NCBI RefSeq assembly: GCF_017792025.1 | Contig: NZ_CP046956.1 | Span: 2,170,001-2,234,000, forward strand | Direction of reading: 5' to 3' | Origin: Sediminibacillus dalangtanensis | GTDB taxonomy: Bacteria; Bacillota; Bacilli; Bacillales; Amphibacillaceae | Length of the DNA: 64,000 nt | Part shown: piece after piece, positions 33,604 through 37,875 of the stretch | Position numbering within the stretch: the stretch's first letter is position 1 | How the letters are laid out: every line of letters begins with the position of its first letter | Position numbers and translations under genes: made by a program | Notes under the pieces: generated by a model | What the model saw: only the letters and a program-made list of their open reading frames with translations | Told to the model about the DNA's origin: nothing | The model's database searches: none

Positions 33604-35496
33604 TCATGCCCTTTGCTGTTTACTTGGCAGCATGCGCTGTATATGTTGGATTGCTTGTTCCTTCGTCAAACCGATTTCTTCTAATAACTGGTCAACTTTA
33701 CCATGTTCAATATATCGATCCGGTATGCCCATCCGTTGAATCGCCTGGTTCTGGTAATCGTTCTCTTCAGCAAATTCCAATACAGAACTGCCAAACCCAC
33801 CTTTTAATACTGCCTCTTCGATCGTCAGTATCGGCAGGTTCATGGACATCAACTCATGAAGCATCCGTTCATCAAGCGGTTTGATAAAGCGTGCATTGAT
33901 CACTTTGACAGATATACCCTTTGCCTGCAATTCTTTGCTCGCCTGCAACGCCATCGGTATGGTAGTGCCGAAAGTTAGGATAGCAGCATCACTACCCTCT
34001 TTCAAGATCTCCCAACTGCCAATTTCTATCGAATGAAACGTTTCATCCATAGCAACGCCTAGACCATTACCACGCGGGTAACGGACGGCAATCGGCCCAT
34101 CATCGTATTCAACCGCAGTATGGACCATATGCTGGCATTCGTTTTCGTCTTTAGGCATCATCACGACCATATTGGGAATACTCCGCAAAAAGGATATATC
34201 GAAGACACCCTGATGCGTTTCTCCGTCTGCTCCCACGAGTCCAGCCCGGTCAATCCCGAACATTACATTGAGGTTTTGTCGGCAGACATCATGAACCAAC
34301 TGATCGTATGCCCGCTGCAGGAAAGTCGAATAAATTGCTAAAAATGGCTTCATCCCCTGGGTGGCAAGCCCTGCTGACATAGTGGCAGCATGCTGTTCGG
34401 CGATGCCGACATCGAAGAGCCGTTCAGGAAACTCCTTTTGGAACTTTTCCAGCTTCGAGCCCAGAATCATCGCAGGCGTAATAACCGTCAACCGCTCATC
34501 TTCCCGCGCTTTTTTTTGCAGCGTACTGCTGACGACTTCACTCCACGCCGGTGGAGCATCTACTGGTTTTATTTTCTCCCCGGAATCGATTTTATACGGA
34601 CCGACTCCATGCCATCTGTCTTTCATGTCTGTCTCTGCTGGCTGGTATCCCTTTCCTTTTTGAGTAATCACATGAACAAGGACAGGACCGCCGGTTTTCT
34701 TGGCATATTGGAGATTTTCCTGCAAAGCAGAAAAATCGTGGCCGTCGACAGGGCCATAGTAGGTGAACCCGAATTCTTCAAACAGCATCCCCGGTACCAT
34801 AAAGTATTTCATGCTATCCTTGACTCGTTCTGCAGTTTGGGCAAGACGACCGCCGACTGCCGGTATTTTTTTCATCAGCCACTCCATCTCATCTTTTACC
34901 CGTTTATATTTGCCTGCACTTCTCATACGTCCTAATGCATTATGCAGGGCTCCGACATTATTGGCAATCGACATTTCGTTATCATTCAGGATGACGATGA
35001 TGTCTTTTTTTTCATGGCCGATATGATTCAGCGCTTCCAAGGCCATGCCTCCGGTCAATGCTCCATCCCCGATAATTGGGACAATATGACTGTCCTCTTT
35101 TTTCAAATCTCTCGCGATAGTCATTCCCATCGCGGCAGATAGCGAGGTAGAACTGTGGCCCGTTTCCCAAACATCATGCTCACTCTCACGTACTTTTGGA
35201 AAACCGCATAAACCTTTATACTGACGCAGCGTATCAAACTGACCGGCACGTCCCGTTAAGATTTTATGAATATAGGACTGGTGTCCCACATCAAATATAA
35301 ATTTGTCCTTCGGGCTCTGAAAAAGTTTATGGAGCGCCAATGTCAATTCCACAACACCTAAATTCGCTCCAAGATGCCCTCCCGTAACGGATAACTTCTC
35401 AATCAGAAACTGCCGGATTTTTGCTGCAAACTGCTCTAATTCTTCGTTTGACATATTTTTTAAAAACGAAGGATCTTTTATTTCTGTAAGATCCAT
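33604..35496 (-). CDS. dxs: 1-deoxy-D-xylulose-5-phosphate synthase
   Basis: A 630-aa thiamine diphosphate enzyme joining pyruvate and glyceraldehyde 3-phosphate, the entry to the non-mevalonate isoprenoid pathway. FDVGHQSYIHKILTGR, then GDGALTGGMALEALNH (cofactor), GIAEQHAATMSAGLA and VRYPRGNG are all present. The frame extends 33 codons upstream, but the ATG at 35496, after AGGGGAGG, gives the usual length. It is downstream of OLE RNA and oapA. Confidence 0.97.
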   Translation of the reverse strand: MDLTEIKDPSFLKNMSNEELEQFAAKIRQFLIEKLSVTGGHLGANLGVVELTLALHKLFQSPKDKFIFDVGHQSYIHKILTGRAGQFDTLRQYKGLCGFPKVRESEHDVWETGHSSTSLSAAMGMTIARDLKKEDSHIVPIIGDGALTGGMALEALNHIGHEKKDIIVILNDNEMSIANNVGALHNALGRMRSAGKYKRVKDEMEWLMKKIPAVGGRLAQTAERVKDSMKYFMVPGMLFEEFGFTYYGPVDGHDFSALQENLQYAKKTGGPVLVHVITQKGKGYQPAETDMKDRWHGVGPYKIDSGEKIKPVDAPPAWSEVVSSTLQKKAREDERLTVITPAMILGSKLEKFQKEFPERLFDVGIAEQHAATMSAGLATQGMKPFLAIYSTFLQRAYDQLVHDVCRQNLNVMFGIDRAGLVGADGETHQGVFDISFLRSIPNMVVMMPKDENECQHMVHTAVEYDDGPIAVRYPRGNGLGVAMDETFHSIEIGSWEILKEGSDAAILTFGTTIPMALQASKELQAKGISVKVINARFIKPLDERMLHELMSMNLPILTIEEAVLKGGFGSSVLEFAEENDYQNQAIQRMGIPDRYIEHGKVDQLLEEIGLTKEQAIQHIQRMLPSKQQRA

Positions 35497-35679
35497 GATG
35501 GGATTCCTCCCCTTCACCATAATTTTCCGGTCGGTAATTACTTGCATGATACCTACCGGTTCCTTTTTGCTTGCGAATTCCAGTTTATGTCGCAATTTGT
35601 ACTTTCCCTTAGTATAACAAATATCTTCAGTAAACGTATGTTTAACGATTCTGTTGACATTTTCTTCTCCTTACCACTA

Positions 35680-36255
35680 CTACCCTTTTTTAAGCAATTG
35701 TACATTGAATTTAGACTCGATCAATGCGACAACCTTGCCCACAAAAAAGATAATATCGGTTGAGGCATGGATGGCAAAATACTTGCCGATTGCTTTTCCG
35801 CCAACAGTCAACGCAGCCACAAAACTGGTTAAGACCACATTGATCACAATTTGGAGGGTGGAACCTTCTGAATAACCGAATCCGTTAGCTACCTGCAACA
35901 CGACAATTGCTGAAGCAGTACCACTGACGATTCCCGAAATATCTCCGATCACGTCATTGCAAAAACTGGCAAAACGATCTGCATTCCGAACAATCAGCAA
36001 GGCTTGCTTGGAACCGCTTACCTTTTCCGAGGCCATTGCGTGGAATGGCGTTTCATCTGCAGCAGTTGCTGCAATCCCCAGCATATCAAAAAATATACCA
36101 ATCAGCACGATAACCAACACGATTAACATTCCTATAATCCATGCTACACCGTTAAGTACGGAAGATGATATAACTGAAAAAATAGCCGCTAACACGAATG
36201 TGATAACGGCAATACTTAAACTAAATCGTAACGACTTTTGTAGTTGTGATTTCAT
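35680..36255 (-). CDS. oapA: OLE-associated membrane protein OapA
   Basis: A 191-aa membrane protein. Long hydrophobic segments (VITFVLAAIFSVISSSVLNG, IIGMLIVLVIVLIGIFFDML, and two near the C-terminus) give about four helices, with charged ADETPFHAMASEKVSGSKQAL between them. It lies directly after a 600-base structured RNA and before dxs, which is the fixed setting of OapA, the protein that binds OLE RNA at the membrane. The ATG at 36255 is preferred, because GAGGG precedes it; another ATG lies at 36267. Confidence 0.9.
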   Translation of the reverse strand: MKSQLQKSLRFSLSIAVITFVLAAIFSVISSSVLNGVAWIIGMLIVLVIVLIGIFFDMLGIAATAADETPFHAMASEKVSGSKQALLIVRNADRFASFCNDVIGDISGIVSGTASAIVVLQVANGFGYSEGSTLQIVINVVLTSFVAALTVGGKAIGKYFAIHASTDIIFFVGKVVALIESKFNVQLLKKG

Positions 36256-36905: not shown

Positions 36906-36990
36906 TTATCATAAATCAAAAAAAATCTCAATTTAAGAAAAAGCGGGCATAGAGTAACTACCACTAAAGTAAGGAAACCAATCAGGTCAT

Positions 36991-37875
36991 TCAACGATCG
37001 CGGTTGCCGAAGTACTCGGTAATGTCGACTAGTACCGAGCTTTCTACACCTGCTTCCTTCAAAGTTTGCTTCGCTTTTTGAATATACATTTCTTTTTGCT
37101 GTATCGCACCATCCAGCCCGAGAAGCTTTGGATAGGTGCTTTTCAAGTTGGTTTCATCGCTGCCTACAGGCTTGCCGATCAACTCGGGGTCACCCTGAAC
37201 ATCGAGAATGTCATCCTGCACTTGAAAAATCAATCCGAGGTAGTAGGCATACTCTTGAAGGGAGGCAATTTGACCAGTAGTAGCCCCGCCGATCATTGCA
37301 CCGGCAGTCACTGCAAATCGGAGTAGCCTTCCTGTTTTCAACGTATGGATTTGTTCCAGTTGTTCCAAGTCTGCTTTTTTGTCTTCAGCCTGCATATCGA
37401 GAACTTGTCCAGCAACCATACCTTTCGGCCCGGCTGCATCAGCTAACTGTCTGATTAATTCCACTTTCTTCGTCTCAGAAACGGCCAATTCCGAAGCGAT
37501 AATTTCGAAGCTGTATGTTAAAAGTCCATCGCCAGCAAGGATGGCAGTAGCTTCATCAAACTGTATATGATTGGTCGGTTTTCCCCGTCGTATATTATCA
37601 TTATCCATCGCAGGCAGATCATCGTGAATAAGTGAATAGGTATGAATCATCTCCAGGGCCGCAGCTGCAGGTATGACAGTTTTTATGACTCCGCCATAGG
37701 ACTCGCAGCTCGCAGCCATTAAAATCGGGCGTAATCTTTTCCCGCCTGCTTCGGCTGAATATTTCATCGCCGCTTTAAGCCGTTCCGGTGCCTCCAGCTT
37801 TTTTATATAACCAACGATTGCTTCATCCATCTGGAGTTGTTTTTCCTTCAAATATTTTTCTAGACTTTCGGTCAC
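36991..37875 (-). CDS. ispA: farnesyl diphosphate synthase (polyprenyl synthetase)
   Basis: A 294-aa enzyme condensing isopentenyl diphosphate to geranyl and farnesyl diphosphate. The first Asp-rich motif is HDDLPAMDNDNIRRGKP (DDxxD-type with the two-residue insert of bacterial FPP synthases); the second is QVQDDILDVQGD. GGKRLRPILM is the substrate-binding start. The start is GTG, one base after the xseB stop, with CAGGAGG inside xseB. The OLE RNA follows. Confidence 0.96.
   Translation of the reverse strand: MTESLEKYLKEKQLQMDEAIVGYIKKLEAPERLKAAMKYSAEAGGKRLRPILMAASCESYGGVIKTVIPAAAALEMIHTYSLIHDDLPAMDNDNIRRGKPTNHIQFDEATAILAGDGLLTYSFEIIASELAVSETKKVELIRQLADAAGPKGMVAGQVLDMQAEDKKADLEQLEQIHTLKTGRLLRFAVTAGAMIGGATTGQIASLQEYAYYLGLIFQVQDDILDVQGDPELIGKPVGSDETNLKSTYPKLLGLDGAIQQKEMYIQKAKQTLKEAGVESSVLVDITEYFGNRDR

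Follow-up and report, generated by a model that had tools for sequence, protein, structure and literature searches.

OLE RNAs form a known class of large structured bacterial RNAs. In Halalkalibacterium halodurans and Clostridium acetobutylicum, the full-length OLE architecture comprises a conserved core and an L9.3 loop with the sequence GGCC, and the RNA gene adjoins oapA between ispA and dxs. The GGCC kissing loop of L9.3 is a feature of the OLE dimer resolved by cryogenic electron microscopy (PMC12286853), and the published picture is that ole lies inside an operon, has its own promoter as well, and yields an RNA that is processed (PMC9723947). Statements on the literature here and below refer to the cited portions of these papers. 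We examined an OLE locus of Sediminibacillus dalangtanensis, which lies in a 64,000-nucleotide stretch (hereafter the window; contig NZ_CP046956.1, positions 2,170,001 to 2,234,000) of a single-contig genome of 4.1 megabases. The locus is an ordinary, complete member of this class. Some relatives carry, apart from ole, a second and divergent OapA, termed OapA2, that is likely to be preceded in several lineages by the binding site of a metal regulator.

A complete OLE RNA in an isoprenoid gene cluster

An earlier note on this DNA, made from its letters, had assigned positions 35496-37875 (by eye, the dxs start to the ispA start) to OLE RNA and OapA among isoprenoid genes. Both the identity and the context hold. 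The covariance model RF01071, which that note had named as the check, matches the region over model positions 1-616 of 616 with 544.5 bits (E 6.8e-157; gathering score 50), and dxs (TIGR00204) and the farnesyl diphosphate synthase gene (NF045485) lie on either side. The whole genome contains one OLE copy, and 14 control genomes contain none. The window RNA matches 240 of the 249 highly conserved (upper-case) consensus positions. Among the 159 pairs of the model, 157 have letters on both sides in the window, and 152 of these are standard pairs.

Compensatory changes provide further evidence for the fold. We aligned the window RNA with its counterparts at 80 named loci (identities of 71 to 97%; kept from the 535 found, and with OLE upstream of oapA in all 80) and imposed the Rfam structure. 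Pairing is observed in 90.4% of 12,644 cells, and 105 of the 157 pairs exhibit changes on both sides (1,545 cells). Column shuffles (100 in all), a control that ignores relatedness, reached maxima of 80.7% pairing, 81 pairs and 590 cells. When the 3′ partners were instead displaced by 1 to 3 columns, the values were at most 44.6% pairing, 64 pairs and 588 cells; this second control respects relatedness, but the same-family model structure favours the true register in it. The region is a real structured RNA.

The L9.3 sequence GGCC is kept, at the sequence level, in all 81 aligned RNAs. The one notable difference from the H. halodurans RNA resides in P6, for which an anti-Shine-Dalgarno mimic (5′-CCUCCU) has been reported (PMC12054373); the exact CCUCC, which does not define the class, is absent from P6 of the window and occurs in 1 of the 81 aligned RNAs. 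Because the H. halodurans mutants M1-M3 bind bS21 without the exact mimic (PMC12054373), conserved G-C pairs seem to matter more than the mimic itself.

A putative promoter with TG before its −10 hexamer ends at position 36903 on the minus strand. Promoter-like sites in the region number five against a shuffle mean of 3.0, and so this candidate is singled out by its position, not by its score. A scan of 35400-37100 for terminator-like sites on the minus strand detected none, which fits the published description of an operon-embedded, separately promoted and processed ole (PMC9723947).

Opposite the RNA, a plus-strand frame (36559-36936) is open over 125 codons in the window, which raises the alternative that this is no RNA gene but a protein-coding one, or merely a frame open by chance. 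Searches of Pfam and NCBIfam at E 0.001 returned nothing for the frame. Where it faces OLE, it stays open in just 1 of 80 relatives (some frame in 8 of 80), which indicates that it is not a conserved gene, as the earlier note had held. The blank family search and the closure of the frame in 79 of 80 relatives rule out a coding reading, and the strength of the OLE match and the compensatory changes in its stems leave this alternative a negligible probability; we regard it as refuted.

OapA and its partner proteins

The oapA gene adjoins ole directly downstream: its first ATG (36267) lies 13 nucleotides beyond the end of the OLE match. The fifth codon is also ATG (36255), and this is the likelier start because in 13 of the 80 named relatives the matched stretch starts ahead of an in-frame stop codon. 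The protein of about 195 amino acids is unremarkable, with its closest named relatives in Sediminibacillus halophilus and S. terrae (96% identity) by a search that may omit the genome's own record. It carries the DxxxD pair of OapA at D105 and D109, and both aspartates are kept in 68 of 68 canonical sequences. The double mutation of this motif defines the PM1 protein of H. halodurans, whose effects are worse than those of deletion (PMC9723947).

Structure modelling predicts a CNNM-like transmembrane fold for OapA, as in the CNNM family proteins MpfA, CorB and CorC. The match to PF01595 is weak (18.6 bits, below the cut-off of 28.4), and Foldseek alone returned nothing under E 0.001 for either OapA model. 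OapA differs from these proteins in that a family search of the 195-residue sequence gave no match to a CBS or CorC/HlyC domain; CNNM domains, in turn, lack the DxxxD of OapA (PMC11332333). OapB and OapC, for which the earlier note had proposed a genome search, are both encoded elsewhere in the genome, as is usual though not universal for genomes with OLE. The DxxxD motif, the CNNM-like fold, the weak PF01595 match and the occurrence of OapA matches in as many family genomes as OLE support the naming of OapA. A complete, fold-conserved OLE stands beside an OapA that has DxxxD and is predicted to fold like a CNNM-type transporter, and the genome also encodes OapB and OapC; the identity of the system is virtually certain.

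A divergent second OapA in relatives

Judged by its sequence, OapA2 is a second, divergent OapA that lies apart from ole in some OLE-bearing genomes (Table 1). A second OapA match away from OLE (E 0.001) is present in 8 of 111 OLE-positive and 0 of 48 OLE-negative genomes of the window's family, a difference that is not significant (p 0.11). Throughout the genomes searched, OapA2 occurs only alongside a separate ole-oapA locus. Close relatives of OapA2 among the 120 listed of 2,786 matches come from Virgibacillus pantothenticus, Pseudalkalibacillus, Lentibacillus, Pontibacillus and Gracilibacillus. A search of listings and passages in an open-access library gave no description of OapA2.

We built a tree of 113 proteins. 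Its 68 canonical OapA sequences come from the window and from 67 named loci; the other 13 of the 80 were left out, as their matches started ahead of an in-frame stop codon. A branch with support of 100/100 separates these 68 from all other sequences; bootstrapping had yet to converge in this analysis, and the software flagged long branches. The 10 OapA2 sequences fall on the other side of that branch in two groups (8 and 2), and OapA2 may therefore be more than one lineage. All 25 OapA2-type sequences keep the DxxxD aspartates. No second OLE was detected beside OapA2 by cmscan at the gathering score (ten loci, including the eight OapA2 loci L132-L139; L and G numbers are our handles for loci and genomes, G000 being the window's own), and a blastn comparison of OLE with the 900 upstream nucleotides showed nothing beyond short chance matches (L132-L139, L141-L144 and L146). 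The segment upstream of OapA2 at L132 (3550-3960) matches no Rfam family, the best being SAM_alpha with 16.2 bits against a cut-off of 36.

A conserved hairpin around CCGGGGTGGTAGCCGG, preceded by GTAGTNCNGGTAATTCA and with compensating stem changes by eye, occurs once in each of the six genomes of a Virgibacillus-like group (g38) that carry OapA2, 60 to 760 nucleotides upstream of that gene. It is present in neither g38 genome without OapA2, and it also occurs once each in G021, G118 and G146, elsewhere in those genomes. The L132 copy has no Rfam match over threshold.

Operator-like sites upstream of OapA2

Several OapA2 genes have the palindrome AGTTTC-N6-GCAACT in their upstream DNA, immediately behind a promoter-like stretch. 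As a test pattern it was dropped as circular, having been drawn from OapA2 sequences themselves, and the test was therefore repeated with an 18-base core of the published operator of Bacillus subtilis mntH, an MntR-regulated gene (PMC9861239). Sites with at least 14 of 18 identities, a threshold chosen after the scores were seen, lie within 300 nucleotides upstream of 4 of 12 partly non-independent OapA2 loci (L136, L141, L142 and L143; the fragment L139 was left out) and in 0 of 160 control regions (Fisher p 1.4e-5). The controls, 80 upstream of oapA and 80 upstream of OLE, cover DNA in and ahead of these two genes, and their composition is unlike that of the OapA2 upstream regions. With a threshold of 13 the counts are 5 of 12 and 3 of 160; with 14 and 900 nucleotides they are 7 of 12 and 0 of 160.

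When compared with 300 shuffles of their own upstream sequences, the same four loci rank 1 to 4. Over 900 nucleotides L146 ranks 3 and L144 a weak 14, L132 is weak at rank 25, and L133, L134, L135, L137 and L138 show nothing (ranks 87 to 246). The best score within 300 nucleotides in the Virgibacillus-like group is 13 of 18. The operator-like site at L136 differs from the palindrome first noticed there.

A search for the exact palindrome gave 12 sites and its reversed control also 12, and so only locations can argue. Seven of these sites fall within an open frame or straddle the end of one; the remaining five lie at two oapA2 genes, before feoAB in G140 (feoA by eye), before a FecCD-type permease gene in G233 and at one unknown gene. 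These patterns make a metal regulator upstream of OapA2 likely in several lineages, with MntR the best, if unproven, candidate.

Functional models for OLE and OapA

The best overall explanation, and a probable one, is that the locus encodes an OLE ribonucleoprotein complex. As to mechanism, OLE would be transcribed from its own promoter inside the nusB-folD-xseAB-ispA-ole-oapA-dxs-tlyA cluster, dimerise, bind OapA in the membrane and modulate an OapA-dependent flux of divalent metal (Mg2+ or Mn2+), such that failed flux would give rise to the stress phenotypes published for H. halodurans. We hold this chain of events to be a shade less than evenly balanced. By extension, OapA2 could be an OLE-unlinked OapA relative under an MntR-type metal repressor, OLE-OapA a transporter system for divalent metal (Mn2+, perhaps Fe2+ or Mg2+) with an RNA subunit, and OapA2 its metal-starvation isoform, served by OLE in trans or by none; this is possible but on balance doubtful.

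Published and genomic observations point to metals. Disruption of ole-oapA in H. halodurans resembles Mn2+ deficiency in minimal medium, with growth rescued by Mn2+, and its suppressors map to the ykoY riboswitch, ykoY, mntB and mntC (PMC10898510). CNNM matches per genome average 1.62 in the 111 OLE-positive and 2.52 in the 48 OLE-negative family genomes, means that count the decayed locus of G083 as OLE-positive and may include a few weak OapA matches. The lower number repeats on a finer scale the published anticorrelation of OLE with MpfA. The Mn2+ rescue, the smaller number of CNNM proteins, the CNNM fold and an OapA paralogue that is putatively regulated by metal lead us to favour metal homeostasis as the central role of the system, and to place the effects on stress and translation partly downstream.

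Several points weigh against this proposal. Adding Mn2+ does not help the deletion strain under cold or ethanol stress (PMC10898510), and metal flux therefore cannot be the whole function. The cited portions of the literature report no transport by OapA, which is without the CBS and CorC domains of MpfA, and the CNNM means ignore kinship. The window's own genome has a single OapA match, and its locus bears no operator-like site; over 300 nucleotides of upstream DNA, the best scores are 10 of 18 identities for OLE and 11 of 18 for oapA.

In a rival view, OLE primarily integrates stress and engages translation factors, bS21 among them (the ‘bTOR’ idea), and metal effects are downstream. In H. 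halodurans, bS21 binds OLE at P6, and loss of bS21 leads to the same cold and ethanol phenotypes (PMC12054373). The Mg2+ and carbon-source phenotypes are not seen on loss of bS21 (PMC12054373), and the exact CCUCC is missing from P6 in 80 of the 81 aligned RNAs, a point softened by the mutants M1-M3; we consider such a primary role unlikely. The size and conservation of OLE, as argued in PMC11332333, and the 249 highly conserved consensus positions of the Rfam model would also suit a ribozyme anchored by OapA, for instance one that makes a signal such as cyclic di-AMP, but the cited literature, in the portions used here, reports no activity, and we give this proposal little credence. Metal homeostasis remains the reading that we prefer.

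Distribution of OLE and OapA

The earlier note had described OLE as confined to few genera, which does not hold: Fernando and Breaker report it in 2,822 Bacillota assemblies (PMC11332333), and it is present in 225 of 397 genomes sampled from the window's order. OapA was found in 226 of these (OapA2 query, E 1e-10), the exception by eye being G361, a genome that is 62% complete and has OapA at a contig end. Within the family, OLE and OapA each occur in 111 of 159 genomes, by eye the same ones among the rows listed.

Individual genomes depart from this pattern. G190 has three OapA matches. G083 (L127, 3797-4774) carries a decaying ole-oapA with OLE shrunk to 394 nucleotides (133.8 bits) and OapA broken; at that locus, the only place in the genome where dxs was sought, a tlyA-like frame follows OapA directly with no dxs between. 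OLE of G114 (L140) seems intact (508.6 bits), and its OapA is split across frames through sequencing error or recent loss.

Gene order and other features

The minus-strand order is nusB, folD, xseA, xseB, ispA, ole, oapA, dxs, tlyA, argR, recN, with nusB, xseB, ispA, dxs and tlyA named from family matches and folD, xseA, argR and recN by eye from translations. The 183-nucleotide oapA-dxs spacer (35497-35679) contains a promoter-like stretch, TTTGTTATACTAAG, that is common to S. halophilus and Virgibacillus senegalensis and absent in the four more distant relatives compared. Elsewhere in the window are two adjoining glycine riboswitch aptamers (62472-62646, minus strand) and two Bacillaceae-1 RNAs (27628-27694 and 43466-43532, plus strand). 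Identical 3,090-base stretches lie close to both contig ends (G000:C1:4253-7342 and 4093274-4096363; L112 = L113), and the circular contig thus seems untrimmed.

Table 1 Features of the OLE locus (window positions) and places of OapA2 and its upstream hairpin in relatives
Feature	Location	Strand	Evidence or remark
OLE RNA, full length by Rfam model	36281..36904	-	RF01071, 544.5 bits, 1-616/616; covariation
Promoter-like site of OLE	36903..36931	-	TTGAGA-17-TAAAAT, TG before second hexamer; promoter scan
oapA, including stop codon	35680..36267	-	195 amino acids from first ATG, 191 from likelier start 36255
dxs	33604..35496	-	TIGR00204, 949.5 bits; start by eye
ispA, farnesyl diphosphate synthase	36991..37875	-	NF045485, 397.6 bits; start by eye
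xseB, exodeoxyribonuclease VII small subunit	37877..38107	-	PF02609
tlyA-family rRNA methyltransferase, downstream of dxs	32773..33597	-	TIGR00478, 290.2 bits
Antisense open frame, non-gene	36559..36936	+	No family match; frame conservation 1/80
OapA2 loci	L132-L138, L141-L143; also L144, L146		Fragment in L139
OapA2 genomes, family	G039, G060, G138, G139, G140, G141, G143, G145		Fragment in G060; frame breaks in G138, G141
OapA2 genomes, order sample	G233, G314, G320, G407, G307
CCGGGGTGGTAGCCGG hairpin	L132 3851-3878; matching places in L133-L135, L137, L138; also L151, L152, L159

Implications

The locus studied here adds a clean and complete example from a Sediminibacillus-type genome; such an example is useful without being a rarity, and OapA2 outweighs it in importance. 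What OLE does has been an open question since 2006. An OapA2 promoter with a putative metal-repressor site, as proposed for several lineages, would offer a direct route to asking whether OapA proteins handle manganese and whether they need the OLE RNA.
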